Assembly: GCA_012512465.1 (NCBI GenBank)
Contig: JAAZED010000019.1
Span: 1-13,547 of the forward strand
Source of the DNA: Oxalobacter sp.
GTDB taxonomy: Bacteria > Pseudomonadota > Gammaproteobacteria > Burkholderiales > Burkholderiaceae_D
DNA: 13,547 nucleotides
Reading direction: 5' to 3'
Positions 548-13,304 of this stretch are shown here, piece by piece (position 1 is the stretch's first letter; each line of letters begins with the position of its first letter). The notes beneath the pieces are model-generated. The model did not search any database. It was given only the letters and a program-made list of their open reading frames with translations, and was not told the origin of the DNA. A program made the position numbers and the translations under genes.

Positions 548-588
548 AAAAGAAGAAAAGCAGGCGCGGCGGTTTGGCTTATTCCTGC
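548..588 (-). terminator. Possible intrinsic terminator of the apbE-like gene
   Basis: Read on the minus strand, GCAGG (588-584) overlapping the end of the apbE-like frame can pair with CCTGC (564-560). A T-rich run TTTTCTTCTTTT (559-548) follows at once. The stem is only 5 bp with a 19-nt loop, so this is a weak call based on the position and the T-tract. Confidence 0.3.
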
Positions 589-1496
589 AGACCGCTGAAA
601 TTTGGCGTTGCGGTAATGATGCCATCCTGATCCAGGACAAATCCGGCCAGGGGGTAATGCAGTGACAGCTGTGCCGTTTTTTCCAGAAAAGTCTCCGATG
701 TTTCATTGAAAAGACCGGTTGAAATAATATCGCCGATCATGGCACTTTCTGTGGCAATACCCAACAGGCGGTTTGTGGCAGGGTGGCCTGTTGCGGGATT
801 CAGGATATGTCCGTACCGCTTGCCGTCAATATCTACAAATGCCGTGCTCTGGGATGAGGTTGAGTAACTGCAGTTATCAAGGTTGAGCGTAAAAAGGGAT
901 TCTTCGCTTTCGGGATGGGTGACATTCACCTGCCAGGGGGCATCTGATGAGGTATTGATTGCCCGGATGGTGCTTCCGCCGGCATTGATGATGGCATTGT
1001 CGATACCCCTTTCCTGCAGGGCGGCAGCGAGCCGGTCTGTCGCATAAGCCTTGATGAAAGAGCCGGTGATGATTTCCTGTCCTTTGCCGATGCGCACACG
1101 ATTGCCGCTGATCTCAATGTTTCTGTAATTGATCAGGTGGCGGATGGCATTGATTTCATCGGGCGCCGGTACCCGCCGGATATCGTCCTTGTAGAACCCC
1201 CACAGACGAATGAGCGGCATGATCGTGATGTCATAGGCGCCATCAAAAAAAACGGAAAGGTCAATCACCTGCTCAAGCATGCGGATGGTTTCATCATCCA
1301 CATTAACGAAGCTGCCGGCATGCCGGTTGATTTGATCGATATAAGAACCCGGCTGGTAGGCGTTGTATTTCCGGTCAACGTTTTCCAGCACGGCATACAA
1401 TTCGTCAAAGAGGGTATCAGGGCAGGCGGCCGGGATTTTGATCCGGATGTGGGCGTGAAAGAGAAAACGGGTCTGTGCCTTGTAAAGCAGGTCCAT
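579..1496 (-). CDS. apbE: ApbE-like FAD:protein FMN transferase, lacking its own export signal (probably 3' part of a gene split by a stop codon)
   Basis: ApbE proteins transfer FMN from FAD to a Thr/Ser of extracytoplasmic flavoproteins (NqrC, RnfG and FMN_bind proteins), using Mg2+. Family features visible in this 305-aa frame are: the N-terminal YKAQTRFLFHAHIRI strand; NAYQPGSYIDQINRHAG (the usual Ser-x-Ile-x-x-Ile-Asn stretch); DGAYDITIMPLIRLWGF; GSFIKAYATDRLAAAL (the Lys-containing flavin loop); NAGG; DGKRYGHILNPATGHP; and GDIISTGLF, where Asp is the expected metal ligand. The usual signal peptide or lipobox is absent and the catalytic domain starts within the first few residues. The only available ATG (1496) has no convincing ribosome site. 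It lies two codons after a TAA that ends the upstream frame 1503-1739, which is in the same reading frame and supplies a signal peptide. The likely readings are a nonsense-interrupted secreted ApbE, or translation restart. Its flavoprotein target is not in the window. Confidence 0.8.
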   Translation of the reverse strand: MDLLYKAQTRFLFHAHIRIKIPAACPDTLFDELYAVLENVDRKYNAYQPGSYIDQINRHAGSFVNVDDETIRMLEQVIDLSVFFDGAYDITIMPLIRLWGFYKDDIRRVPAPDEINAIRHLINYRNIEISGNRVRIGKGQEIITGSFIKAYATDRLAAALQERGIDNAIINAGGSTIRAINTSSDAPWQVNVTHPESEESLFTLNLDNCSYSTSSQSTAFVDIDGKRYGHILNPATGHPATNRLLGIATESAMIGDIISTGLFNETSETFLEKTAQLSLHYPLAGFVLDQDGIITATPNFSGLQE

Positions 1497-1849: not shown

Positions 1850-1869
1850 ATTAATGATAACAATTCTCG
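1850..1869 (+). promoter_or_regulatory. Fur-box-like operator between the divergent apbE-like and ferric importer genes
   Basis: ATTAATGATAACAATTCTC (1850-1868) matches the classical 19-bp Fur consensus GATAATGATAATCATTATC at 14 of 19 positions by my hand alignment. The 15-mer at 1855-1869 matches the 7-1-7 form at 11 of 14 fixed positions. It sits just upstream of the -35 element of the proposed importer promoter and about 110 nt from the minus-strand start at 1739, so it could serve both directions. Iron repression of the downstream importer by Fur is an inference from the site and the gene content. Confidence 0.65.
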
Positions 1870-1875
1870 TTTTCG

Positions 1876-1966: not shown

Positions 1967-2995
1967 ATGAAACAGAAAATATGGCTGGGGTGCCTTGCCT
2001 TTGCCGCAGGCCTTTTGGGTGTCGTGCCGGCAATGGCCGGTGATAATGTCGTCAACCTATACAGTGCCCGCCACTATGAGTCAGACAAGGCGCTGTATGA
2101 GGCATTTACGAAAAAAACCGGTATCAGGGTGAATGTGGTCAGTGGCAAGGCGCCGGAACTGATCGAGCGCATCAAGCGGGAAGGGCAGAATACCCAGGCT
2201 GATGTGTTTATCACCGTGGATGGCGGTGTACTCAATACAGCGAAAAAGGCCGGCATTCTCCAGGCCATGCCTGCCGGTGCTTTTTCCAAAGAGGTACCCG
2301 GCAACCTGCGGGACAGGGAGGATTACTGGGTCGGGCTGACAACCCGCGCCAGGGTGATTGTCTATTCAAAGGAGCGGGTAAAGCCGGAAGAACTGTCCAC
2401 CTATGAAGATCTGGCTGGCGCAAAGTGGAAAGGCCGCGTGCTGGTCCGTTCATCCGCCGATCTGTATGATCAGTCCCTTCTGGCGTCATTGATTGCCATC
2501 GATGGCTATGAAGAGGCAGAAAAATGGGCCGCAGGCATTGTCGCCAACATGGCGCGGCAGCCAAGGGGCAATGACCGCGCCCAGGCAAAGGCGATAGCTG
2601 CCGGTGAGGGAGATGTCGCCATCATGAACACCTACTATATCGGCCAGATGCTGCATTCCAAAGATCTGGAAGAGGTACGCGTGGCAAAAAATACCGGTGT
2701 CTTTTTCCCGAACCAGAAAACCACGGGAACGCATATCAACATCAGTGGCGCCGGCCTGACAAAATACGGAAAAAATCGCGAAAACGCGATGAAGCTGATT
2801 GGCTATCTGCTCAGTGTGCCGGCGCAGGAAGCGCTATCAAACGGCAATTATGAGTATCCGGTCAACCCGAAGGCCCAAAAGCACAAGCTGCTTGATGCGT
2901 GGGGTTCTTTCAGAACCCAGCAGATCGATTTCTCACTTCTGGGAGAAAACAACCCCAATGCCATACGCATCTTCAACAAGGTGGGCTGGAAGTAA
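1967..2995 (+). CDS. fbpA: Periplasmic ferric-iron-binding protein of an ABC importer (FbpA/FutA/IdiA family)
   Basis: This is the substrate-binding component that captures Fe3+ in the periplasm for an ABC importer. Start: an in-frame TTG at 1943 is possible, but the ATG at 1967 has GAGAGAAGGA 6 nt upstream and begins a clean signal peptide (MKQKIWLGCLAFAAG...VPAMA, cleavage likely after Ala24), giving 342 aa. The mature protein opens with NLYSARHYESD (Tyr32, His36, Tyr37), the N-terminal ligand block seen in FutA-type proteins. The paired tyrosines of NTYYIGQ (Tyr223-Tyr224) are the typical C-terminal iron ligands of this class. Other family segments are ADVFITVDGG, YWVGLTTRARVIVYS, the ISGAGLTKYGKN region and the PVNPKA stretch near the end. 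The length is normal. It is first in a three-gene operon whose permease start overlaps its 3' end. The fbp name is used by family; fut or afu names would be equally valid. Confidence 0.92.
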   Translation: MKQKIWLGCLAFAAGLLGVVPAMAGDNVVNLYSARHYESDKALYEAFTKKTGIRVNVVSGKAPELIERIKREGQNTQADVFITVDGGVLNTAKKAGILQAMPAGAFSKEVPGNLRDREDYWVGLTTRARVIVYSKERVKPEELSTYEDLAGAKWKGRVLVRSSADLYDQSLLASLIAIDGYEEAEKWAAGIVANMARQPRGNDRAQAKAIAAGEGDVAIMNTYYIGQMLHSKDLEEVRVAKNTGVFFPNQKTTGTHINISGAGLTKYGKNRENAMKLIGYLLSVPAQEALSNGNYEYPVNPKAQKHKLLDAWGSFRTQQIDFSLLGENNPNAIRIFNKVGWK

Positions 2996-4631
2996 TCCTG
3001 CCGGCTGGCGACTCCGGATTAACGGCTGGGTAGCGCTGCATCGCATTTCGCTTTTCTGCATTGCGCTGCCCTTCGTTTTTCTGCTGGTCAGCGTTTTTTC
3101 GCCGGCCGGGGCATACTGGGAGCAGGTCAGGGATTACCTGCTGAAAACCTACCTCACCGATACCCTGCTCCTGCTTTTTTTCAGCGGTATCACCTCGGTG
3201 GTGCTGGGCGTTTCCCTGGCATGGTGCACCAGTGTGTATGACTTTCGCGGAAAGCGGTTAATCGACATCCTGCTCTTTCTTCCGCTGGCGGTTCCCCCCT
3301 ATATTGCGGCTTATACTTTTGATGGGATGCTAAGCTATACCGGTGTGGTCCAGACGTTTTTACGTAATGTTGCGGGGCTGTCCGGTGCGTCGGCAAGCTT
3401 TTCCGTGCCGGCCATGCCCTTTGCGGTTTTTATTTTTACGATTACGCTGTTTCCGTATGTCCTGCTTTTTGTGAAAACTTTCCTGCATAACCAGAGCGGT
3501 TCGCTGCTGGAAAATGCGGTACTGCTGGGGGGAAGCCGGAAAAGGGCCTTCACCCGGATCATTCTGCCGCTTTTGATTCCTTCGATGCTGGCCGGCGGTA
3601 CTCTGGTTTGCCTGGAAGTGTTAAACGATTATGGTGTGACCAGTTATCTGGGGCTCAACACCTTTACGACGGCTATTTTTGCCGCCTGGTTCGGGATGGG
3701 GGATGTGGATACGGCCATCAAGCTGGCAGCCGTTTTACTGGCCATTGTCATCGTTTTTCTTATCATTGCCAGGGGCATGCAGCACCGCAAAAAATATCGC
3801 ATTGTTTCCAGCAAGGAGCGAAAGCTGACACCAAGGCACGTTAAGGGTTGGCAGGGCGCGGCAGTGATTTCCTATTGTGTTTTTGTGGTGTTTGTTGCGT
3901 TTGTCATACCGGTTGCCCAGATGATGGTGTGGGCGATAAAAAGCTGGGACACAGAAAGCTTTATGCAGATTCTCGGCACGATTGGCAATACCCTGTACGT
4001 AGGCGGGATTGCGACACTGCTGATCCTGTTTTTTGCTGTTGGCGCGGCCAATGCCAATCGCCTGTTTGCCGGAAAATACACGGCGTTTTCTGCGCAGGCC
4101 GCTACCGTGGGGTATGCGATACCTTCTGCCGTCCTGTCGATGGGGGTTGTGACGGCATTTGCTTTTCTTGATGGCGGTGTCCGCCGGCTTTTTCCTGCGC
4201 TGGCTGGATTACCGCTCAGCATGACGGTATGTATGCTGGTTTATGCGTACAGTGTCCGTTTTTATTCAATCGGTTATCAGGCGATTGACACCGGTTTTTC
4301 CAAAATCGGGCCAATCTATACCGAAGCATCCCGTACATTGGGACTCGGTGTGACAAGGACGTTTTTCAGGGTGGACATTCATATGATCCGTCAGGCGATT
4401 ATCTCCGGTGCCGGACTGGTTTTTGTCGATATCATCAAGGAGTTGCCATTGACATTGACGTTGCGCCCTTTCAATTTTGATACGCTGGGCACGAAAGTGT
4501 ACGAATACGCCAACAATGAGGCGATTCACGAAACAGCGTTTCCCTCACTGTGCATTATTGCGGTGAGCGCTGCTGTCATCATCCTGATGCAGCGGTGGGC
4601 AAAAAGCGGCAGTACCGCATTTTCAGGATGA
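2958..4631 (+). CDS. fbpB: Ferric-iron ABC importer permease, two fused transmembrane halves (FbpB family)
   Basis: This is the inner-membrane channel of the ferric importer, with about 12 predicted membrane segments in two homologous halves. Each half carries an EAA-type loop that docks the ATPase: one starts at Glu185 (ENAVLLGGSRKRAF...) and the other at Glu456 (EASRTLGLGVTRTFF...). This two-in-one architecture is standard for FbpB/SfuB/AfuB permeases, and 557 aa is the usual size. Start choice: the frame stays open far upstream inside the binding-protein gene, but no in-frame ATG, GTG or TTG occurs between the binding-protein stop and the first membrane helix. The ATG at 2958 has GGGAG about 12 nt upstream, so the gene likely begins 38 nt inside its neighbour with translational coupling. 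The N-terminus is therefore less certain than the rest. The stop overlaps the ATPase start as ATGA (4628-4631). Confidence 0.9.
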   Translation: MPYASSTRWAGSNPAGWRLRINGWVALHRISLFCIALPFVFLLVSVFSPAGAYWEQVRDYLLKTYLTDTLLLLFFSGITSVVLGVSLAWCTSVYDFRGKRLIDILLFLPLAVPPYIAAYTFDGMLSYTGVVQTFLRNVAGLSGASASFSVPAMPFAVFIFTITLFPYVLLFVKTFLHNQSGSLLENAVLLGGSRKRAFTRIILPLLIPSMLAGGTLVCLEVLNDYGVTSYLGLNTFTTAIFAAWFGMGDVDTAIKLAAVLLAIVIVFLIIARGMQHRKKYRIVSSKERKLTPRHVKGWQGAAVISYCVFVVFVAFVIPVAQMMVWAIKSWDTESFMQILGTIGNTLYVGGIATLLILFFAVGAANANRLFAGKYTAFSAQAATVGYAIPSAVLSMGVVTAFAFLDGGVRRLFPALAGLPLSMTVCMLVYAYSVRFYSIGYQAIDTGFSKIGPIYTEASRTLGLGVTRTFFRVDIHMIRQAIISGAGLVFVDIIKELPLTLTLRPFNFDTLGTKVYEYANNEAIHETAFPSLCIIAVSAAVIILMQRWAKSGSTAFSG

Positions 4632-5281
4632 GTAGTTTCATGTTTTTATGTATCAGAAATCTGCGTTTTCGCTATCAGTCACCCGGACCCATGGTGCTGG
4701 ATGGTTTTTCCCTGGACGTCGATGAAGGCGAGATTGTTGGGGTGGCGGGAGAAAGCGGGAGTGGGAAAAGCACGCTGTTAAGGCTGATTGCCGGTCTTGA
4801 GAAGCCATTGTCCGGCGAGATAGTCATGGATGGGCAACTGCTCGCCGGTGATACCGTTTTTGTTGAACCTGAACATCGGCAGGTGGGGCTTTTCTTTCAG
4901 GATTATGGATTGTTTCCGCACCTGACGGTCCGGAAAAATATCGAGTTTGGCCTGCATCGTCTGGATAAGGCGGCACGCCGTGTGCAGACGGAAAAGATGC
5001 TGGCGTTAATCAAGATGCCGGAACTTGCCGGCCGCTATCCGTATGAATTGAGCGGTGGCCAGCAGCAGCGCGTGGCGCTGGCGCGGGCACTGGCTCCCCG
5101 CCCCAAGGTATTGCTTCTGGATGAGCCATTCAGCAATCTGGATGCCGAACTGAAGGAAACCATCCGGCAGGAGGTCAGGGCGATTCTGGAATCAACGCAG
5201 ACAACCTGCCTTCTTGTTTCGCATGACCGATCGGATCTGGAAGCGGTTTGCGGACGGATTATTGAGTCTCCCGCACCCTGA
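4628..5281 (+). CDS. fbpC: Ferric-iron ABC importer ATPase, short form (FbpC family)
   Basis: This is the cytoplasmic ATPase that powers the ferric importer. It has all nucleotide-binding motifs: Walker A GESGSGKST (41-49), Q-loop Gln91 (FFQDYGLFPHLTV), signature LSGGQQQR (141-148), Walker B VLLLDEP (161-167), D-loop NLD and H-loop His199. The start overlaps the permease stop as ATGA. A second ATG at 4640 also follows a purine-rich stretch, so the true start may be 12 nt later. At 217 aa it is much shorter than typical FbpC/SfuC/CysA-type ATPases (about 340-360 aa), because it stops soon after the H-loop and lacks the C-terminal TOBE/regulatory domain. In Neisseria FbpC that domain helps dimerisation and regulation. 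No frame continuing it was seen downstream, only a T-tract and the P19 control region. Confidence 0.9.
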   Translation: MSSFMFLCIRNLRFRYQSPGPMVLDGFSLDVDEGEIVGVAGESGSGKSTLLRLIAGLEKPLSGEIVMDGQLLAGDTVFVEPEHRQVGLFFQDYGLFPHLTVRKNIEFGLHRLDKAARRVQTEKMLALIKMPELAGRYPYELSGGQQQRVALARALAPRPKVLLLDEPFSNLDAELKETIRQEVRAILESTQTTCLLVSHDRSDLEAVCGRIIESPAP

Positions 5282-5451: not shown

Positions 5452-6009
5452 ATGAAAGGCAGTAAAAAACTGGGCAGGCTGATTGCAGCTTCTGCCGTGG
5501 CAGTTTCAGCCCTTGCGCTGAGCAGTTCTGCTTTTGCGGCAGATTTTGAAGAATTCCCGCTGGGTGATGCCAAAGTCGTTGGACCGCTGAAGGTTGCTGG
5601 CGTTTACTTCCAGCCGGTTGACATGGAGCCCGCTGGCCAGGCCGGTCTGCCTGCATCCAAATCCGATATGCACATCGAAGCCGATATCTCTGCAGCAAAA
5701 GACAATAATCTGGGTTTCGAGGAAGGTGATTTTGTTCCCTACCTGACCGTGAAATACCGCATCCAGAAGCAGGGCGGCAAGCTGATTGAGGGATCTTTTA
5801 TGCCGATGAGCGCGAGCGATGGCCCGCACTACGGCAACAATGTCAAGCTTGATGGTCCGGGCAAATACAAAGTGACGTTCATTATTGATAATCCGGAAAA
5901 GCAGGGATATCTGCTGCACGTGGACAAGGCAACCGGGGTAACCGGCCGCTTCTGGAAAAAACCCATCGAAGTCAGCTGGGATTTCAACTACATTCCACGC
6001 GTCTGGTAA
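5452..6009 (+). CDS. P19/Tp34-family periplasmic high-affinity iron-transport protein (FetP-like)
   Basis: This is a 185-aa exported protein of the P19/Tp34/FetP family (Pfam Iron_transport), which binds Cu and Fe in the periplasm and supports iron uptake. A Sec signal peptide covers residues 1-29 (cleavage AFA|AD). The expected metal ligands are all visible: His74 and Glu76 in SDMHIEADI, Met119 and His126 in FMPMSASDGPHYG, and His156 in LLHVDK. The C-terminal IEVSWDFNYIPRVW strand is also typical. GGAGA lies 6 nt before the ATG. It has its own Fur-like control site upstream and a strong hairpin terminator downstream, so it is probably made in excess over the membrane genes that follow. In Campylobacter and E. 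coli the partner is an FTR1-type permease (Cj1658, FetM); none is in this window. Confidence 0.93.
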   Translation: MKGSKKLGRLIAASAVAVSALALSSSAFAADFEEFPLGDAKVVGPLKVAGVYFQPVDMEPAGQAGLPASKSDMHIEADISAAKDNNLGFEEGDFVPYLTVKYRIQKQGGKLIEGSFMPMSASDGPHYGNNVKLDGPGKYKVTFIIDNPEKQGYLLHVDKATGVTGRFWKKPIEVSWDFNYIPRVW

Positions 6010-6081
6010 TCGCGAAAGCGCTTCATTTCCGGAAAATCCCCGGTAGTTTTAGTCCTGCACGTTGAAGTGATAGCAGCACCT

Positions 6082-6127
6082 CAGGAAAGCTGATGGCGGC
6101 AATCATCAGTTTTCCTGTTTTTGTTTC
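6082..6127 (+). terminator. Strong intrinsic terminator (or partial terminator) after P19
   Basis: The arms CAGGAAAGCTGATG (6082-6095) and CATCAGTTTTCCTG (6104-6117) form a 14-bp stem with one G-U pair and an 8-nt loop. TTTTT (6118-6122) follows, then GTTTC. It lies 73 nt after the P19 stop and 49 nt before the next gene. No good promoter was seen between it and 6176, so the downstream genes may depend on read-through. Confidence 0.8.
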
Positions 6128-6175
6128 ATGAAATCAGGACGCAGGGGAATTTTCGGGAAAAGAGGATGAACGAAT

Positions 6176-7423
6176 ATGTTGCAGTACCTGATTAACGTCA
6201 CGTCTACCATTCTGCCGGCGTTGCTGCTGGCGGGGTTGTTGTCAGGTCTGATCAAAAAACAGAATGCCTGGCCGCTCAGGAGATACCTGGCTGGCGGCAT
6301 TCTCTTCGGCAGTATCATCGCAATGATACTCGCTGTCCTGCGGCTGTCGACCGGTTTTGTTATCCGGGAGCTTTATAATGCGCCGCTTTTGTTGCTGATG
6401 ATTGTGGCAGAGGCCGTGCTGCTGTTATGGCTGTTCGCCCTCAGGAAAAACATGGATTTCTATACGGGAAGGCGTGCCGCCATTCTCGTTTTTGTGCTGG
6501 GATTTGTCTGGTCTGCCTTTGCCTTGCCGGATATGGTGCTGTACCCGTTCGAGTTTGATGTGGGGATGGACTCCATTTACAACCAGGCGTTTTTGAACAA
6601 GGTTGCCGGTTACCTTATTGCACTCGTTGTGGCCTCTCTGGCCGCCTTGTCGCTTTTCCGCCTGAGTGTGCGATATGGTGAAAAACTGTTTGCGCGAATC
6701 TTTTTTCTTGCCACCGCCATTTCCGCACTGTGGCATACGCTGCTTTTCTTGCAGATCGCGGTGTTGCGGCGCTGGGTACCCGATTTTTCCTGGCTTGTCG
6801 AGCTGGTCATGTACTCGCTTGCGTATCAGAATGCCTTCCTGTTTGCCCTGCTGGGGCTGGCTGTTTATGCCGCTGCCAGCAGTATACGAACGAGCAGAAG
6901 GGCTGTGATTGATGGCCCGAACCCCGCGCTTCAGCGCAAACAAAAAATTGATGTCAAAAGACAGGTCCGCTGGGCGGTACTGCTGTTGTTGACGGTGCTT
7001 GCGGTATTTCTGATCCGGACCGTGGGTGTTGAACTCAACAATCAGGTTGTCGAATTGGCACCCCCTGTTGAGTTGGCGCCGGAAGCGGGAAAAATCGCCA
7101 TCCCGGTTGAAACTGTCAATGACGGGCATTTGCACCGCTTTGGCTATACCGCCGAGGATGGCACGCAGATGCGTTATATCGTCATCAGGAAGGGAGAAGG
7201 ATCATTTGGCGTCGGGCTGGACGCCTGCGATGTCTGCGGTCCGAGCGGGTACTACGAAAGGGATGGACAGATTGTCTGCATCCTGTGTGATGTTGTCATG
7301 AATATTTCCACGATTGGGTTTAAGGGCGGGTGCAATCCGGTGCCACTGGAATATGTCCTGGAAGACGGCAGGCTCGTCATCAAAACTGCTGATCTGGAAG
7401 CAGAAGCGCATCGTTTCAGGTAG
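6176..7423 (+). CDS. Polytopic membrane protein with C-terminal Cys-rich DUF2318 domain (Cj1660-like, P19-system component)
   Basis: The 415-aa product has about eight hydrophobic segments (roughly residues 8-25, 38-57, 70-88, 100-122, 143-163, 173-197, 207-233 and 263-283). A soluble domain of about 130 residues follows. That domain has CDVCG (Cys351, Cys354), CILCD (Cys368, Cys371) and Cys386, plus the pattern of GYY, NISTIGFKGGC and NPVPLEY typical of DUF2318, often described as Fe-S containing. An even number of helices would put both ends on the same face; a periplasmic C-domain is my inference. In P19 clusters a protein of this type sits beside P19 and FtsX-type permeases. It lacks the REXXE motifs of FTR1 permeases. 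GAGGA lies 9 nt before the ATG. A role in handling or reducing iron delivered by P19 is plausible but unproven. Confidence 0.82.
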   Translation: MLQYLINVTSTILPALLLAGLLSGLIKKQNAWPLRRYLAGGILFGSIIAMILAVLRLSTGFVIRELYNAPLLLLMIVAEAVLLLWLFALRKNMDFYTGRRAAILVFVLGFVWSAFALPDMVLYPFEFDVGMDSIYNQAFLNKVAGYLIALVVASLAALSLFRLSVRYGEKLFARIFFLATAISALWHTLLFLQIAVLRRWVPDFSWLVELVMYSLAYQNAFLFALLGLAVYAAASSIRTSRRAVIDGPNPALQRKQKIDVKRQVRWAVLLLLTVLAVFLIRTVGVELNNQVVELAPPVELAPEAGKIAIPVETVNDGHLHRFGYTAEDGTQMRYIVIRKGEGSFGVGLDACDVCGPSGYYERDGQIVCILCDVVMNISTIGFKGGCNPVPLEYVLEDGRLVIKTADLEAEAHRFR

Positions 7424-7434
7424 GAGGGATAGCC

Positions 7435-8721
7435 ATGTTTTTACGAATGCTCCGATGTGCATTGCTCAGACAGAAAAGAAAGCTTGTCATGATTGCCGTG
7501 ACGATGGCGCTGGGCGTTTCGCTCTCAACCGCCATGCTCAATGTGATGATGGATGTCGAGGAAAAGGTGAATCAGGAGTTGAAGGTCTACGGCGCCAACC
7601 TGAATGTGGTGCCCCGGGGCGCATCGCTTCTTGGTGATCTTTACGGGATTGAGGATGGCGCCGGGATTGCGGACAAATATATTCTCGAAGAAGAACTGCC
7701 GAAGATGAAAACCGTCTTCTGGGCGTACAACATCGTGGACTTTGCGCCATACCTGGAAATGCCGGTTTCTATTGATGGAACCGATGCAAAAATCAGCCTG
7801 GTCGGGACCTGGTTTGACAAACATCTGGACCTGCCGACGGGATATGCCATCAATACCGGTATCAGCAAGCTGAAAAGCTGGTGGGAGGTATCAGGAAGCT
7901 GGGTCAGGGATTCTGATAAATCGGGCGCCATGGTCGGCAACCTGCTGGCGGCAAAATTCAGGCTCAGCCAGGGAGACCGCCTCACGCTCAGGACGCCCGA
8001 TGGAAAAACGGCAGAGCTGGTTATTCGTGCAACCCTTCACAGCGGTGGCCCGGAAGATGAGCAGATATTTGTGCCGCTCCAGATGGTTCAGGCCTTATCC
8101 AATCGGGAGGGGCTGGTTCAGCGAGTGGATGTGAGTGCACTCACAACACCGGAAAATGAACTGGCACGGCGCGCAGCAACCGATCCGGCCAGTCTGACAC
8201 GCAAGGAATGGGATGCATGGTACTGCACCGCTTATATCAGTTCAATTGCCTACCAGATTGAAGAAGTCCTGACCAATGTGCGGGCCAAGCCGGTACTGCA
8301 GGTGTCCGAATCCGAGGGCGGCATCCTGAACAAGATCAAGCTGCTGATGCTGCTTCTGACAGGGATGAGCATGCTGTGCGCTGCCCTGGGGATTTCCAAT
8401 CTGGTTACCATGAATGTGATGGAGCGCAACAAGGAAATCGGCATGATGAAAGCCGTTGGCGCGACGGATATGGACGTCATCCTGCTGATTATGGGTGAAA
8501 TCCTTCTTACGGCCATTATCGGTGGATGCGCAGGATATTTTGCCGGTCTGGGGTTTGCGCAGATGGTCGGTTATACGGTGTTCGGCGCCAGCGTGGATGT
8601 GCAGCCGATCGTTATCCCTGTTGTCGCCATGCTTTCTGTTCTCGTCACCATCCTTGGCAGCCTGCCTGCTCTGCGGATGCTGCTGTCCATGCAGCCAGCA
8701 GAAGTGCTTTATGACCGGTAG
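7435..8721 (+). CDS. MacB/FtsX-type ABC permease, first subunit of the P19-linked ABC unit
   Basis: This 428-aa inner-membrane protein has the type VII ABC layout: one N-terminal helix (about 16-38), a large extracytoplasmic domain (about 40-300), then three helices (about 301-327, 349-372 and 391-413). The cytoplasmic MERNKEIGMMKAVGA (329-343) is the FtsX/MacB coupling segment, and the C-terminus PAEVLYDR is also family-typical. The early periplasmic YGANLNVVPRG is shared with the next gene. A single-Cys motif WYCTAYISSIAYQIEE (Cys264) precedes helix 2 and is absent from the partner permease. GGAGGG sits 6 nt before the ATG, directly after the DUF2318 gene stop. It probably pairs with the next permease as a heterodimer on the ATPase at 9883. 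MacB/LolE-type units move or mechanically act on periplasmic substrates and are not classical importers, so the substrate is unknown. Confidence 0.85.
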   Translation: MFLRMLRCALLRQKRKLVMIAVTMALGVSLSTAMLNVMMDVEEKVNQELKVYGANLNVVPRGASLLGDLYGIEDGAGIADKYILEEELPKMKTVFWAYNIVDFAPYLEMPVSIDGTDAKISLVGTWFDKHLDLPTGYAINTGISKLKSWWEVSGSWVRDSDKSGAMVGNLLAAKFRLSQGDRLTLRTPDGKTAELVIRATLHSGGPEDEQIFVPLQMVQALSNREGLVQRVDVSALTTPENELARRAATDPASLTRKEWDAWYCTAYISSIAYQIEEVLTNVRAKPVLQVSESEGGILNKIKLLMLLLTGMSMLCAALGISNLVTMNVMERNKEIGMMKAVGATDMDVILLIMGEILLTAIIGGCAGYFAGLGFAQMVGYTVFGASVDVQPIVIPVVAMLSVLVTILGSLPALRMLLSMQPAEVLYDR

Positions 8722-8733
8722 GGAGAAGGCATC

Positions 8734-9873
8734 ATGAATAGAAAATCAGCACTGTATTTCCGGATGCTTTTTCGTGCGCTTTCACGGCGTCTTTCCCGGA
8801 TGTTTATTGCCGTACTGGCTATTGCCATCGGGGCAACGGTGCTTTTTGGCATGCTGACCATCTACTATGATATTCCCCGGCAACTGGGGCGTGAGATGCG
8901 CTCTTATGGCGCTAACATGATTCTGGTGCCGTCTGCTCAAACCGGCAATATGGATCTGGAGGATGTAAAAAATGCGGTAGCGGTACTGCCGGAAAGCAAG
9001 GTAATCGGCGCTACGCCCTACCGCTACGAAGCCATGCGCATCAATCGTCAGCCCATTACTGCTGTGGGAACCGATTTTGCCCAGGCACAGAAGACCCGCC
9101 CCTACTGGCAGATAGAGGGGGAGTGGCCAAAAGCCGAAGATGAGATTCTGATCGGCACGGATATTGCACAGTACACGCAGCTTCGTCCCGGTGCCGAAGT
9201 GAGGATGAGCGGGCAGACAAAAGAACACAAGCGTTTCGGGGCGAAGATGAAGATTGCCGGTATCGTCAGGACCGGCGGCCCGGAAGACGGCTATGTCTTT
9301 ATGGATCTGGCGGTACTGGAAATGCTCATGGAGACGCCTGATGAGGTGGAGGTCTTTGAGTTGAGTATTGCGGCACCGGCAGAAGAACTGGTCTCCTTTG
9401 AAGAGCAGATCCGGCAGGCGGTGCCGGAAGTCACGCCTCGCCTGGTCAAGCGGATTACCCAGTCCGAGACGATTGTCCTTTCAAAGCTGCAGACGCTGGT
9501 TTATCTCGTGACCATCGTCATGCTTTTTCTGACACTGATCTGCGTGGCGACCACCATGATGTCGATGGTAATGGAGCGGCGCAAGGAAATCGGCCTGAAA
9601 AAAGCCATCGGCGCGGAAAACCGCAGCATCGTGATTGAATTTCTGGGAGAAGGGGTTGTGCTCGGGCTGGCTGGCGGCATCATCGGGTCAACGTTCGGCT
9701 GGTTTTTTGCCCAGCAGGTCAGCATGAGCGTTTTCGGGCGCAGCATTTCCTTTGATCCGCTTCTGGTACTGGCAACCATCGTGATATCACTTGTTGTGAC
9801 AATCGTTGCCTGTATCCTGCCCATCAGAAGGGCTATCAGCATTGAACCCGCCATTGTGCTGCGGGGGGAATAA
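8734..9873 (+). CDS. MacB/FtsX-type ABC permease, second subunit of the P19-linked ABC unit
   Basis: This 379-aa permease has the same fold as its upstream neighbour: N-terminal helix (about 20-42), periplasmic domain opening with YGANMILVPS, then helices at about 254-278, 303-325 and 343-365. The coupling segment is MERRKEIGLKKAIGA (280-294) and the end is EPAIVLRGE. It is about 50 residues shorter than the first subunit, mainly in the extracytoplasmic domain, and lacks that subunit's WYC motif. It starts 12 nt after the preceding stop with GGGAGAAGG as ribosome site. The pair of unequal permeases plus one ATPase resembles the Cj1661-Cj1663 arrangement of the C. jejuni P19 cluster. Confidence 0.85.
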   Translation: MNRKSALYFRMLFRALSRRLSRMFIAVLAIAIGATVLFGMLTIYYDIPRQLGREMRSYGANMILVPSAQTGNMDLEDVKNAVAVLPESKVIGATPYRYEAMRINRQPITAVGTDFAQAQKTRPYWQIEGEWPKAEDEILIGTDIAQYTQLRPGAEVRMSGQTKEHKRFGAKMKIAGIVRTGGPEDGYVFMDLAVLEMLMETPDEVEVFELSIAAPAEELVSFEEQIRQAVPEVTPRLVKRITQSETIVLSKLQTLVYLVTIVMLFLTLICVATTMMSMVMERRKEIGLKKAIGAENRSIVIEFLGEGVVLGLAGGIIGSTFGWFFAQQVSMSVFGRSISFDPLLVLATIVISLVVTIVACILPIRRAISIEPAIVLRGE

Positions 9874-9882
9874 GAGGGTGTA

Positions 9883-10554
9883 ATGAATATACTGGAACTC
9901 GACGACGTATCAATGATTTATGGCAGCGTGAAAGCGTTGCAGGACGTCAGCCTGCATGTGGCGCCCGGCGAATGGATTGCCATCATGGGACCTTCCGGCT
10001 CCGGCAAGACGACCATGATGAATCTCATCGGTTGCATGAACAAGCCATCCAATGGTTCTGTGATCCTGGACGGAGAGGATCTTTCCCGTATCAGTGCACG
10101 GGAGCTGACCGCCATCCGGCGAGACAAGATCGGCCTTATTTTCCAGCAGTTTCACCTCGTTTCCTACCTGACGGCACTTGAAAACGTGATGATGGCCCAG
10201 TATTACCACAGCATGGTGGATGAGGCGGAAGCCATGGAAGCGCTTTCCCGTGTCGGATTGGGTGAAAGGGCGCGGCCCCTGCCCAGCCAGCTTTCCGGCG
10301 GTGAGCAGCAGCGTGTCTGTATTGCCCGGGCGCTGATCAACCATCCCAGGTTGATTTTAGCGGATGAGCCTACCGGCAATCTTGATGGAGACAATGAAAA
10401 CATCGTGCTGGATATTTTCCGGCAGCTTCATAAAGACGGCAGTACCATCATTATGGTCACCCATTCACCGGAAGTGGCGGCACATGCCCAGCGGACGATC
10501 GTGCTGGAACACGGCCGGGTGGTAAACATGACAGAAAACCAGGCCGTTTTGTAA
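9883..10554 (+). CDS. LolD/MacB-type ABC ATPase serving the two upstream FtsX-type permeases
   Basis: This 223-aa cytoplasmic ATPase has Walker [10 protein letters not shown] (36-44), Q-loop Gln88 in [17 protein letters not shown], signature LSGGEQQR (137-144), Walker B LILADEP (157-163), D-loop NLD and H-loop His194. The IFQQFHL and ADEPTGNLD wording is typical of the LolD/MacB/FtsE branch, which fits the FtsX-type permeases upstream. GAGGG lies 4 nt before the ATG, 9 nt after the permease stop. The length is normal for a stand-alone subunit. Confidence 0.9.
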
Positions 10555-10579
10555 CGTTATCGCAAGGAGAAAGCTCATC

Positions 10580-11011
10580 ATGACAAACCGCGTTATCACG
10601 AGCCTGGCTTTTATTGCGCTGGGTCTTTTGACGGCCATCCTGCCCCATACACTTTTTCATGTCTGCACAGGAACCATTGAAGCTGTATCGGGTATGCAAA
10701 TCCCGATGAAATGCTTCTGGACTGCCCGGGTGGCAACAGGGCTGGGCGTGCTTTTCTGCCTGTCCGGCATCCTGCTTTATTTCAGCAAAACGGTCCTGGT
10801 CAGGCTGGGCATCAGCCTGATGATTTTCATGAACGGTATCCTGCTGGCAGCGGTTCCCACTATTCTGATTGGCGTATGCCATGCAGAAACCATGCCATGC
10901 CGCATGGGAACATTGCCCGGCCTGCTGGTACTGGCTGTGCTGATCATCATTTTCAGCCTGGCCAATCTGCTTTATCTGTCCCGGCAATCGAAAAACGGTA
11001 TCCAGCCATGA
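10580..11011 (+). CDS. DUF4418-like small membrane protein with conserved Cys/His/Met pattern
   Basis: The 143-aa product has four hydrophobic segments (about 7-25, 50-68, 76-97 and 112-133). Between helices 1 and 2 are HTLFHVC (His27, Cys29) and MKC (Cys45). Between helices 3 and 4 is VCHAETMPCRMG (Cys100, His101, Met105, Cys107). This Cys/His/Met layout is what I recall for the DUF4418 family, which often neighbours FtsX-type ABC genes. The loops lie on the same face of the membrane, so a metal site or disulfide there is an attractive inference. AAGGAGA precedes the ATG. The stop overlaps the start of the next permease as ATGA (11008-11011), so the two are translationally coupled and probably work together. 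The function is unknown. Confidence 0.72.
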   Translation: MTNRVITSLAFIALGLLTAILPHTLFHVCTGTIEAVSGMQIPMKCFWTARVATGLGVLFCLSGILLYFSKTVLVRLGISLMIFMNGILLAAVPTILIGVCHAETMPCRMGTLPGLLVLAVLIIIFSLANLLYLSRQSKNGIQP

Positions 11012-12219
11012 ACTCACGCCCGCTGACCACCTTGCGCATTGCCCGGGAAAACCTGGCGCAGCGCCCTTTTCGTACCGCCGGGCTGATATTGATTGTGCTG
11101 GTTTTTTCCTTTCTTCTTTTTGGCGGTTCCATCCTGATTGAAAGTATTCGCACAGGTATTAATAGCATGTCCCAGCGGCTGGGAGCCGATTTGATGGTGG
11201 TGCCGCATGGCTACGAAAAGCAGTTGCAAAGTGCGCTGTTACGGGGTGAGCCGAGTTCTTTTTATCTGGAACAGTCACTGGAGCAGAAGATCAAAGCCAT
11301 GGATGGGGTCGACAAGGTGTCTTCCCAGATTTTTATTGCGTCGCTTCAGGCCGCATGCTGCACATTGCCCGTTCAGTTGATTGGCTTCGATCCCGAAACA
11401 GATTTTATTGTTACCCCCTGGATAAAAAACAGCCTGTCCCGTGAGCTCACCGATGATGAAATCATCGTCGGCAGTAAGATAGAAGGCGAGCCGGGCGGTC
11501 ATATCACCTTTTTCGGCAAACGCTATCGTATAGCGGCGCGGCTTGACCGTACCGGCATGGGATTTGACACTTCGGTTTTCCTGAAACTCGATACCGCCAG
11601 AAACATGATCAGAAAACTCGAGATTGCCCCGCTTTTTGATGTGAAGGATCTGGACCAGGTTGTCTCATCTGTCATGGTTAAGGCGAAAGCCGGCCAGGAT
11701 ACCCGTGCACTTGCCAACACCATCCTGCAGCGCCATGCCATGGCGTTCAATCTTGATATGGTGATGTCCCGGACCATGATGAGCGACATTGCCTCCCGCC
11801 TGCAGTCTTTTTCCCTGGTCATGTATGCGCTGGGCGGGTTGCTCTGGCTGTTGGCAACTGGTGTTCTCATGCTGGTTTTTTCCATTGTCGTAAACGAGCG
11901 AAGGCGCGAATTCAGCCTGCTGCGTGTGCTGGGCGCCAGCAGGAAAAAACTTTCCGGTATTCTCATGACAGAAGCATTCCTGATCAGCCTGGCAGGATCA
12001 ATCGGCGGCCTTTTTTTATCGGCACTCATTGTTTTTTCCTTCCGCACACTGATCAGTAATATGATCGGCCTCCCTTTTCTTTTGCCGGCGTTCCCGAAAA
12101 TCGGGCTGGTTTTTCTGCTGAGCCTGCTGGTGTCTGCTGGTATCGGGCCGCTGGCCTGCCTTTATTCAGCCTGGCGTCTGGGAAAAGGTGATATCTATAC
12201 TGCATTGCGGGGAGAGTAA
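11008..12219 (+). CDS. FtsX-type ABC permease of the DUF4418-linked unit, with a Cys-Cys pair
   Basis: The ATG at 11008 overlaps the previous stop (ATGA). A longer reading from 10711 would run through the neighbour and is rejected. The 403-aa protein has an N-terminal helix (about 21-44), a periplasmic domain opening with GADLMVVPHGYEKQ, and three C-terminal helices (about 271-296, 317-346 and 365-385). The coupling segment is NERRREFSLLRVLGA (296-310). In the periplasmic domain lies QAACCTLPVQLIGFDP with adjacent Cys117-Cys118, followed by DFIVTPW; this may form a metal or redox site facing the Cys/His loops of the DUF4418-like partner. Only one permease gene is present in this unit, so it may homodimerise on the ATPase at 12219. 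Confidence 0.83.
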   Translation: MNSRPLTTLRIARENLAQRPFRTAGLILIVLVFSFLLFGGSILIESIRTGINSMSQRLGADLMVVPHGYEKQLQSALLRGEPSSFYLEQSLEQKIKAMDGVDKVSSQIFIASLQAACCTLPVQLIGFDPETDFIVTPWIKNSLSRELTDDEIIVGSKIEGEPGGHITFFGKRYRIAARLDRTGMGFDTSVFLKLDTARNMIRKLEIAPLFDVKDLDQVVSSVMVKAKAGQDTRALANTILQRHAMAFNLDMVMSRTMMSDIASRLQSFSLVMYALGGLLWLLATGVLMLVFSIVVNERRREFSLLRVLGASRKKLSGILMTEAFLISLAGSIGGLFLSALIVFSFRTLISNMIGLPFLLPAFPKIGLVFLLSLLVSAGIGPLACLYSAWRLGKGDIYTALRGE

Positions 12220-12935
12220 TGATGCTGGAACTGATTGGTGTCGGGAAAAACTATCTGCGTGGCGGTGTTCCCTTTGCTGCGGTGGACGATGTCAGCCTGA
12301 AGATGGAAAAAGGAGATTTTCTCAGTATTGTGGGACGTTCCGGCAGCGGGAAGAGCACCCTGTTGAACATGATTGCCGGTCTCTTAAAGCCGGACCGGGG
12401 AGAAATCCGTTTTGCGGAGCAGGACATTGCCCAACTGGATGACCGGGCCATGTCTGCGCTTCGCAATGCGCGCATTGGCTACATCCCGCAGGGGGCCAGC
12501 CTGCTGCCTAATTTCACCGTGACAGACAATATCCGCCTGCCCTGGTATCTTTCCGGCAAGCGCGAAACGGATGCAAGTGGCCGGGCGCAGTATCTGCTGG
12601 GTGAGGTGGGCCTTTCCCATCTGGCCGATGCCTATCCGGCCCAGCTTTCCGGTGGTGAGATGCGCCGTGTGGCCATTGCACGGGCGCTGATCAATACGCC
12701 CGATCTGCTTGTTGCTGATGAGCCAACCAGTGACCTTGATGCCGTTTCCATACAGGATGTCATGGATCTGCTGGCCAGGATTCATCAGCGGGGAACGGCC
12801 CTCCTTCTGGTTACCCACGAACTCGATACCGTTGCTTACAGTGAGCGGGTGGCACTGATGCGGTCCGGCCGCGTGCTTGAGCTGGAAAAAAGCGAAGCGA
12901 CAAAAACATCACTGATCACCCGGCTGGCAGAATAA
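12219..12935 (+). CDS. LolD/MacB-type ABC ATPase of the DUF4418-linked unit
   Basis: This ATPase of up to 238 aa has Walker A GRSGSGKST (39-47), Q-loop Gln91 in YIPQGASLLPNFTV, signature LSGGEMRR (143-150), Walker B LLVADEP (163-169), SDLD and H-loop His200. The start overlaps the permease stop as TAATG; the next codon is also ATG (12222), and GGGGAG upstream suits either. It is clearly diverged from the ATPase at 9883, for example IPQGASLLP against IFQQFHLVS, so the two units are not a recent duplication. It is the last gene of the long co-directional run and is followed by a possible terminator. Confidence 0.88.
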   Translation: MMLELIGVGKNYLRGGVPFAAVDDVSLKMEKGDFLSIVGRSGSGKSTLLNMIAGLLKPDRGEIRFAEQDIAQLDDRAMSALRNARIGYIPQGASLLPNFTVTDNIRLPWYLSGKRETDASGRAQYLLGEVGLSHLADAYPAQLSGGEMRRVAIARALINTPDLLVADEPTSDLDAVSIQDVMDLLARIHQRGTALLLVTHELDTVAYSERVALMRSGRVLELEKSEATKTSLITRLAE

Positions 12936-12955: not shown

Positions 12956-13004
12956 CATATTTCAGCATGCAGTTCCTTGCTGCTTTTTTTCTCATGCTGA
13001 TATG
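12956..13004 (+). repeat. Interrupted inverted repeat ending on the ArsD-like start codon
   Basis: CATAT-TT-CAGCATG (12956-12969) is complementary to CATGCTG-ATATG (12993-13004) apart from the two-base TT bulge: 7 bp perfect plus 5 bp. The 23-nt loop holds the T-tract. The right arm ends on the ATG of the ArsD-like gene. It could be an operator, a start-hiding hairpin that competes with the terminator fold, or chance. Confidence 0.45.
12963..12990 (+). terminator. Possible intrinsic terminator at the end of the ABC operon
   Basis: CAGCA (12963-12967) can pair with TGCTG (12978-12982) across a 10-nt loop, followed by C and seven T (12984-12990). A nested GCAG/CTGC pairing is an alternative. 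The stem is short, so confidence rests on the T-tract and the location 28 nt after the last ATPase stop. Confidence 0.4.
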
Positions 13005-13304
13005 CCCAGGATAAGCCGTCTCCAGATTATTGAGTCGCCCGCCGCGCTGGCTGACCGGCCTGCTGCGCTTGATACCGATCTTGAATGGGTAAAAAAACGC
13101 GGCGTTGATGTTGAGCGATTGCCTCAGGATGCCTCGTCACCCGCGCCCATTTCCCTTTCCGGCCCACTGCCACTGGTTTTTGTTGATGGCAATATGGCCC
13201 TGTCCGGCCGTTATCCCACCCGAGAGGAGATGGGGATATGGATGATGTTCGGCTTTGTCTCCCCGAATGACAGTAATGGCGGGCCGCGTCTCTGCACGCT
13301 TTAA
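13002..13304 (+). CDS. Shortened ArsD-like protein lacking the metalloid-binding cysteines
   Basis: The 100-aa frame matches the thioredoxin-fold ArsD family at three places: RLQIIESP near the N-terminus (where ArsD has a strand like LEVFDPA), TDLEWVKKRGVDVER in the middle, and LPLVFVDGNMALSGRYPTREEM at the C-terminal half. ArsD is an arsenic metallochaperone and weak repressor that passes As(III) to the ArsA ATPase through a Cys-Cys pair and Cys18. Here the Cys12/Cys13/Cys18 segment is replaced by residues without cysteine, the linker after VER is short, and the only Cys is four residues from the end. Typical ArsD is about 120 aa. No Shine-Dalgarno sequence is seen before the ATG, no ars partner gene is visible, and an insertion element follows. 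It may be a decayed remnant or a repurposed fold. Confidence 0.6.
   Translation: MPRISRLQIIESPAALADRPAALDTDLEWVKKRGVDVERLPQDASSPAPISLSGPLPLVFVDGNMALSGRYPTREEMGIWMMFGFVSPNDSNGGPRLCTL

Follow-up and report, generated by a model that had tools for sequence, protein, structure and literature searches.

How can an iron-uptake system built around the periplasmic protein P19 operate when the permease FTR1 (FetM) is missing, and what do additional ATP-binding cassette (ABC) genes contribute to it? Both questions are raised by a 13,547-nucleotide (nt) contig of an Oxalobacter sp. (GenBank assembly GCA_012512465.1, JAAZED010000019.1; the whole stretch is called the window here), which carries P19, the genes FetA, FetB, FetC and FetD, and behind them a unit of three further genes, DUF4418, FtsX3 and ABC2. 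We propose, with slightly less than even confidence, that this is a Fur-regulated P19/Fet cluster without FetM, in which ATP-driven, cysteine-bearing units release iron from P19 and import proceeds via the adjacent FbpABC genes. In Campylobacter jejuni, disrupting fetA, fetB, fetC or fetD each impairs growth, and FetBCD together with FetA are proposed to relay reducing power to FetMP, according to the available part of PMC10783030.

A P19/Fet cluster without FTR1

An earlier note on this DNA had recognised P19, a DUF2318 protein, two FtsX-type permeases and an ATPase. Pfam matches over cut-off bear this out, in the C. jejuni fetP-fetABCD order and all on the plus strand: P19 (FetP, periplasmic iron-binding protein; 5452..6009; PF10634, 207 bits), FetA (a membrane protein with a C-terminal, FtrD-like DUF2318 domain; 6176..7423; PF10080, 109 bits), the FtsX/MacB-type permeases FetB (7435..8721; PF02687 and PF12704, with MacB matches) and FetC (8734..9873; Pfam match), and the MacB/FtsE/LolD-type ATPase FetD (9883..10554; ABC_tran over cut-off, NCBIfam matches below their cut-offs). 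The genes that the note had described as added are likewise real and directly continue the cluster on the same strand, namely the four-helix membrane protein DUF4418 (10580..11011; PF14387, 94.6 bits), the type VII ABC permease FtsX3 (11008..12219; FtsX PF02687, 66.6 bits against a cut-off of 25.5, with the MacB core at 25.8 bits, below its 27-bit cut-off) and the LolD/FtsE-type ATPase ABC2 (12219..12935; ABC_tran over cut-off, NCBIfam matches below cut-offs). The note's "tight coupling" applies from FetA onward, where the gaps up to DUF4418 are 9-25 nt and overlaps of 4 and 1 nt join the last three genes, but not between P19 and FetA, which are separated by 166 nt enclosing a terminator-like hairpin of 15 pairs (6082..6117, plus strand), the longest stem among such sites in the window.

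Compared with C. jejuni fetMP-fetABCDEF, as described in the accessible parts of PMC10783030 and PMC6083913, the window has P19, FetA, FetB, FetC and FetD in identical order, and its FetA contains the CxxC-x13-CxxC-x14,15-C motif reported in PMC6083913. It differs in having no FetM/FTR1 and, at the locus, no FetE/FetF thioredoxins, and in adding FbpABC upstream and DUF4418-FtsX3-ABC2 downstream. Because two fet features were not found, FTR1 beside P19 and a thioredoxin or FMN-binding protein in the cluster (searched for in the window), we regard the locus as a variant that would work like Fet rather than as a full member. The bfeUO-sifABCDE system of Bifidobacterium breve, in the portion of PMC5449479 available, shares the core system and has a terminator after the P19-like bfeO and before sifA, comparable to the window hairpin; it differs in having BfeU (FTR1) and the FMN-binding SifE, and that portion shows no DUF4418 unit.

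The FTR1 profile PF03239 gave no match in the window's genome, an 85% complete metagenome-assembled genome of the genus Oxalobacter (2.04-Mb bin, 448 contigs), and none over cut-off among the 12 genomes of the genus, which are incomplete bins; the sole trace below cut-off was a fragment with an internal stop in genome G504 (12.1 bits, E 0.079). The earlier claim that FTR1 is missing here thus stands. P19 was present in 4 of the 12 genomes (85, 62, 87 and 72% complete), and none of these four P19 loci has FTR1. Outside Oxalobacter, FTR1 lay at most 250 nt from P19 in all 44 annotated P19-fet loci with sequence upstream of P19, and FTR1, P19 and FetB occurred together in 44 loci. A Mailhella locus (L050) starts inside P19, thus lacks this upstream sequence and falls outside the count. 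The non-Oxalobacter P19-FetA loci came from a DUF4418 scan (described below), FtrD-like searches of phyla, two class hits and one Escherichia coli plasmid. The FtrD-like searches covered 218, 368 and 326 genomes in three phyla, with 14, 54 and 85 passing the PF10080 cut-off; from these draws we fetched the 32 matches above the cut-off whose open frame reached 318 residues, and 8 of the far commoner short ones, and one further long-frame match, in G470, is locus L044. In the accessible text of PMC6083913, each of the 33 species selected as carrying the fet system has its first six genes, among them FTR1. As a side observation, a Clostridia-type locus has two consecutive P19 genes after FTR1 (L152:3691-4966).

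FbpABC next to P19

Directly upstream of P19 lies FbpABC (1967-5281, plus strand), which does not figure among the claims of the earlier note. It comprises an FbpA/FutA-type ferric-binding protein (1967..2995; PDB matches of 354 bits to 6g7n, 337 to 2pt1, iron transport, and 283 to 1y4t, iron-binding), an FbpB-type permease with an ambiguous start codon (2979..4631; PF00528 in two stretches) and an FbpC-type ATPase (4628..5281; PF00005, 127 bits) that overlaps FbpB by 4 nt. Pfam and PDB matches therefore give a ferric-binding FbpA, a permease and an ATPase in one unit, with NCBIfam cut-offs not reached. Judged by its PDB matches, FbpA is a member of the FutA/FbpA ferric-binding family. The unit resembles the FbpABC/FutABC ferric ABC importers in its three-gene order and in that FbpA is nearest to ferric-binding proteins of known structure, and differs from them in abutting a P19-Fet cluster.

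FbpABC lies directly 5' of P19 in three of the four Oxalobacter P19 loci (the window, L035 and L132). It recurs in L162, from genome G1419 of the Desulfovibrio-phylum draw, where a nitroreductase-like gene, FTR1, P19, FetABCD, DUF4418, FtsX3 and ABC2 are followed by FbpABC in the same direction. In a FastTree phylogeny of the best 120 of 7489 FbpA hits plus L162, the L162 protein fell in another branch than the Oxalobacter clade, which suggests that the association of FbpABC with P19 arose twice; a common origin of the two FbpABC sets is not supported by this tree. FbpABC would be the likeliest route of iron import in Oxalobacter.

The DUF4418 unit in other genomes

DUF4418 is rare, occurring in 1 of 200 genomes of the phylum and 1 of 274 of the class, each time the window's own genome. 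A wider scan, with a single peptide motif and one genome per species over 84,980 genomes, returned 39 loci; because a single motif was used, it misses divergent members such as that of Fusobacterium. P19-FetABCD stood in the same locus in 19 of them: 15 Gilliamella, Oxalobacter, L036 (a Deltaproteobacterium), L044 (a Desulfovibrio) and Mailhella. The other 20, some on short contigs, had no P19 in the locus and came from Treponema, Clostridiales, Christensenella, Chloroflexi and one Deltaproteobacterium; P19 was found elsewhere in four of these genomes. The earlier note had treated the DUF4418 unit and P19 as one system, which holds in part: the linkage exists in 19 of 39 loci, albeit with 15 of the 19 from Gilliamella, and no P19 match exists in 16 of the 39 genomes. 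The unit thus belongs to some Fet systems and also exists without P19.

The P19-FetABCD-DUF4418-FtsX3-ABC2 order of the window is shared by Gilliamella and desulfovibrio-type clusters (L036, L038, L044 and others), which differ in having FTR1 before P19 and, in Gilliamella, also a nitroreductase-like gene before FTR1. In four Spirochaetota loci the unit is split, with DUF4418 and ABC2 ahead of FTR1, and with FtsX3 behind an FMN-binding gene at the opposite end of the cluster; two of these loci, L139 and L142, have an opposite-strand gene between ABC2 and FTR1, and in L142 the edge of the stretch truncates the DUF4418 frame. FetABCD and the DUF4418 unit also occur, without adjoining P19, in Fusobacterium vincentii and G1465. 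Altogether 21 loci hold both the DUF4418 unit and FTR1. The loss of FTR1 and the gain of the unit are therefore separate changes, and the single novelty that the earlier note had made of them was not borne out.

Most Clostridia-type and plasmid clusters are without the DUF4418 unit. Among plasmid records, the window DUF4418 protein had no match and the Fusobacterium one matched nothing but the record it came from; the DUF2318 and P19 queries gave 836 and 851 records, mostly from E. coli. In the open-licence literature searched, DUF4418 turned up only in a Bifidobacterium longum expression table, and no paper connected it or FbpABC with the P19-Fet system.

We then compared the divergence of the two permease families. 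The FetB and FtsX3 trees concur on the linked clades, with the deeper FtsX3 order open, and FetB and FtsX3 distances correlated with r 0.96 over 16 loci. Across 8 lineage representatives r was 0.70, a value reached in 1 of 2000 permutations; the correlation for ABC2 over these 8 was weaker (0.54, reached in 12 of 2000 permutations). The FetB tree places Oxalobacter beside Desulfovibrio-phylum and Gilliamella clusters (95/91), which is consistent with horizontal gain by Oxalobacter.

Some loci stood apart. L168 has the order FetB-FetC-DUF4418-FtsX3-ABC2-FetD-FetA on a very long branch with no P19 or FTR1 nearby. Gilliamella sp. Choc5-1 has FetA as two frames (L045:5393-6649), and in Clostridiales bacterium 43-6 a cupredoxin-like protein lies 3' of a solo DUF4418 unit (L037:13163-14137). 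Solo units of Treponema, several apparently from rumen or colon (L060, L061, L064, L065 and L066), stand by an Rrf2 regulator, an aminotransferase/C-S-lyase-like gene and a pyridoxal-phosphate enzyme of Cys/Met metabolism. This Treponema sulphur-metabolism setting was the only context common to solo units.

Conserved cysteines and predicted folds

Alignments revealed invariant residues in most components. In P19, H74, M117, M119 and H126 were present in 38 of 38 rows and H156 in 37; we take these five to be metal ligands. The five cysteines of FetA (C351-x2-C354-x13-C368-x2-C371-x14-C386) and C264 of FetB were retained in all 39 rows, and no conserved cysteine was seen in the alignments of the FetC outer domain. 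The C117-C118 pair of FtsX3 occurred in 25 of 25 rows and, in a wider set, at 34 and 35 of 36, the exceptions being the first permeases of Chloroflexi tandems. DUF4418 showed C45, C100, C107 and M43 in 24 of 24 rows and C29 in 23. The very long-branched L168 was kept outside the main counts; its FtsX3 also has the CC pair. These invariant cysteines across FetA, FetB, FtsX3 and DUF4418 suggest an ATP-driven thiol or metal relay that would feed iron to P19 or FbpA. The pattern fits the reducing-power relay proposed in the available part of PMC10783030 and would extend it to DUF4418-FtsX3.

A related arrangement was seen in P19-less DUF2318 loci with a FetC-like permease, where a CxxC permease was present in 10 of 10 loci (10 of 13 permeases). 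In these loci (L171, L172, L173, L175, L164, L167, L170, L177, L159 and L160), the CxxC lies near the end of the FtsX outer domain, the ATPase is FetD-like, and the DUF2318 protein is mostly short. In three further short-DUF2318 loci no such permease was seen.

The DUF4418 model (predicted local distance difference test, pLDDT, 90.1) consists of four long helices; C29, C45, C100 and C107 sit at loops or helix starts of one predicted face, which also bears M43 and which charge balance weakly places outside. DsbB/VKOR-like oxidoreductases are four-helix membrane bundles with two outward cysteine pairs and a quinone site; neither family was among the 50 rows listed in the fold search with this model. 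In the FtsX3 model (pLDDT 82.4), C117-C118 fall in an outer-domain loop predicted with low confidence; the model resembles LolE, MacB and the heme exporter HrtB. With four transmembrane helices, a large outer domain between the first two and a LolE/MacB fold, FtsX3 has the predicted features of the type VII (MacB/LolC) class. Its predicted fold and the ATPase families are shared with LolCDE, MacB, FtsEX and HrtBA, from which it differs by the CC pair in the outer domain and by its coupling to DUF4418.

Possible redox partners

The earlier note had seen no thioredoxin-like gene at the locus, and profile and Pfam searches of the window agree, finding neither a thioredoxin nor an FMN-binding homologue; the rest of the genome was not searched. 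The profiles were built from seven cluster sequences, five from the thioredoxin slot, one of which (from an E. coli plasmid) is unlike thioredoxin, and two FMN-binding. According to the accessible part of PMC8238504, the P19 clusters of many Gram-negatives carry a thioredoxin, and 260 clusters, mostly Gram-positive, carry an FMN-binding protein. The DUF4418 unit as a strict substitute for these partners is unsupported, given that FMN-binding proteins co-occur with it in Spirochaetota and Fusobacterium. No annotated locus combines the unit with a thioredoxin, and just three annotated loci have any thioredoxin.

A further candidate redox partner is the nitroreductase-like gene upstream of FTR1 in the 15 Gilliamella loci and in L161, L162, L163 and L165, whose start suggests a secreted product. 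A Pfam match identified it in L038 (L038:2955-3590), and a profile from that single sequence found the others and detected none in the window. The window has an ApbE-family FMN transferase (579..1496, minus strand; PF02424, 186.8 bits), divergent from FbpABC and conserved in position in L035 and L132. ApbE may be no more than an accessory part; its place beside FbpABC is suggestive.

Fur-like sites and flanking features

Fur-box-like sites precede FbpA (1853..1871) and P19 (5354..5372), both on the plus strand and each with 3 mismatches to AATGATAATNATTATCATT. The palindromic pattern gave these two sites in the window against 0.01 expected. By eye, a similar palindrome precedes P19 in L035, L132 and L130; the one in L035 exceeds 3 mismatches to the pattern, and the site before its FbpA is within 3. 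The cluster is probably Fur-regulated, a trait that belongs to the fetMP-fetABCDEF system together with a requirement for growth when iron is scarce. A terminator-like hairpin with a T run 3' of ABC2 (12969..12983, plus strand) is taken as the operon end; the window holds 27 terminator-like sites against 15.8 expected, so single sites are weak evidence. From left to right, the window reads transporter fragment, ApbE, FbpABC, P19, FetA, FetB, FetC, FetD, DUF4418, FtsX3, ABC2 and an ArsD-like frame. The last (13002-13304) follows the terminator-like hairpin and has a counterpart 3' of the cluster in L035 (L035:12416-12727).

Proposed mechanism and alternatives

In the mechanism that we propose, P19 would bind iron on the outer side of the inner membrane. 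Two type VII (MacB/LolCDE-type) ABC units, one made of FetA and FetB-FetC-FetD and the other of DUF4418 and FtsX3-ABC2, would not themselves carry iron through the membrane. ATP would drive the movement of their outer domains with the conserved cysteines; electrons, thiols or metal may thereby be handed to P19, or to the iron-loaded ligand of P19, so as to free the iron, which would then enter through FbpA-FbpB-FbpC in the slot of FetM. The direction of the relay and the hand-over of iron to FbpA are presumed steps.

Several observations weigh against this proposal. The 16 genomes with a DUF4418 unit and no P19 match mean that the job of the unit need not be iron. DUF4418 has no meaningful PDB sequence match, its predicted fold matches generic four-helix bundles only, and conserved cysteines are compatible with redox chemistry as well as with metal binding. 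The best NCBIfam matches of the window FbpA, all below cut-off, are phosphonate- and thiamine-binding proteins, and in the fourth Oxalobacter P19 locus (L130, genome G508), P19-FetABCD-DUF4418-FtsX3-ABC2 stands between other genes with no adjoining FbpABC. The search of the window's genome for an inner-membrane permease covered FTR1 (PF03239) only, and not, for example, FeoB. The Fur pattern was chosen after the sequence upstream of P19 had been inspected, and in a scan of the window with the classical Fur 19-mer the best site scored 14 of 19 and the P19 site fell outside the top four. Separate Fur-like sites also mean that FbpABC and P19 are perhaps mere neighbours in one regulon.

This last point leads to a different reading, which we consider doubtful, that P19-Fet passes iron to another inner-membrane importer, FeoB or some other, and FbpABC is only a co-regulated neighbour. 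The separate Fur-like boxes and the G508 locus speak for it, but the adjacency is retained in the other three Oxalobacter P19 loci and recurs in L162 with an FbpA of another branch. It is unlikely, too, that DUF4418-FtsX3-ABC2 works independently, as an exporter or envelope device that has only the operon in common with Fet. The 20 loci and 16 genomes without P19 favour such independence, as do the separate clade of Clostridiales and Treponema permeases and the solo units of rumen-type Treponema beside Rrf2 and Cys/Met-enzyme genes. Against it, the unit directly follows FetD alike in Oxalobacter, Gilliamella and desulfovibrio-type genomes, surrounds the same cluster in the four Spirochaetota loci, accompanies FetABCD even without adjacent P19 in Fusobacterium and G1465, and has FtsX3 distances that parallel those of FetB.

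Two explanations concern FTR1 itself. That it exists but was dropped from the assemblies, or that the cluster is a decaying remnant, seems very improbable, although the P19-bearing Oxalobacter genomes are incomplete and genus genomes over 90% complete have no P19. The chance of missing FTR1 in all four P19 genomes is about 0.002 by our estimate, if misses are independent, and the FTR1 slot is sequenced and occupied by FbpABC in three loci; in the window, frames are open and conserved residues retained. In favour of decay, the G508 bin holds two versions of one region (L131:9510-9749 and L130:3414-10970) with flanks 81-85% identical. In one of them the cluster is deleted from the P19 gene as far as the final part of ABC2, so that only ends of P19 and ABC2 remain, and the P19 remnant has two TAG stops. 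We give hardly any credence to the DUF4418 unit as a permease replacing FTR1. Both novelties coincide in Oxalobacter, but FtsX3 is predicted to fold like the type VII ABC proteins, a group distinct from the classical importers, and such a substitution is rejected by the 21 loci that carry both.

Beyond the proposed P19/Fet-FbpABC mechanism, a bolder and distinctly speculative extension is that the Oxalobacter Fet system was rebuilt on FbpABC import, that its two tandem cysteine-bearing type VII machines would work as an ATP-driven cysteine relay, an undescribed outer-face thiol or metal pump, and that the short DUF2318-FtsX(CxxC)-ATPase loci may be simpler relatives. The clusters described here narrow the possible roles of MacB-type ABC units in Fet iron uptake. 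FetABCD is retained where FTR1 is missing (Oxalobacter) and where the locus has no P19 (Fusobacterium and G1465), and is therefore more than an FTR1 accessory. The cysteines that never vary provide exact residues for testing, and the FTR1-less, FbpABC-joined form sets up, by nature, an experiment that bears on the identity of the permease receiving the iron.

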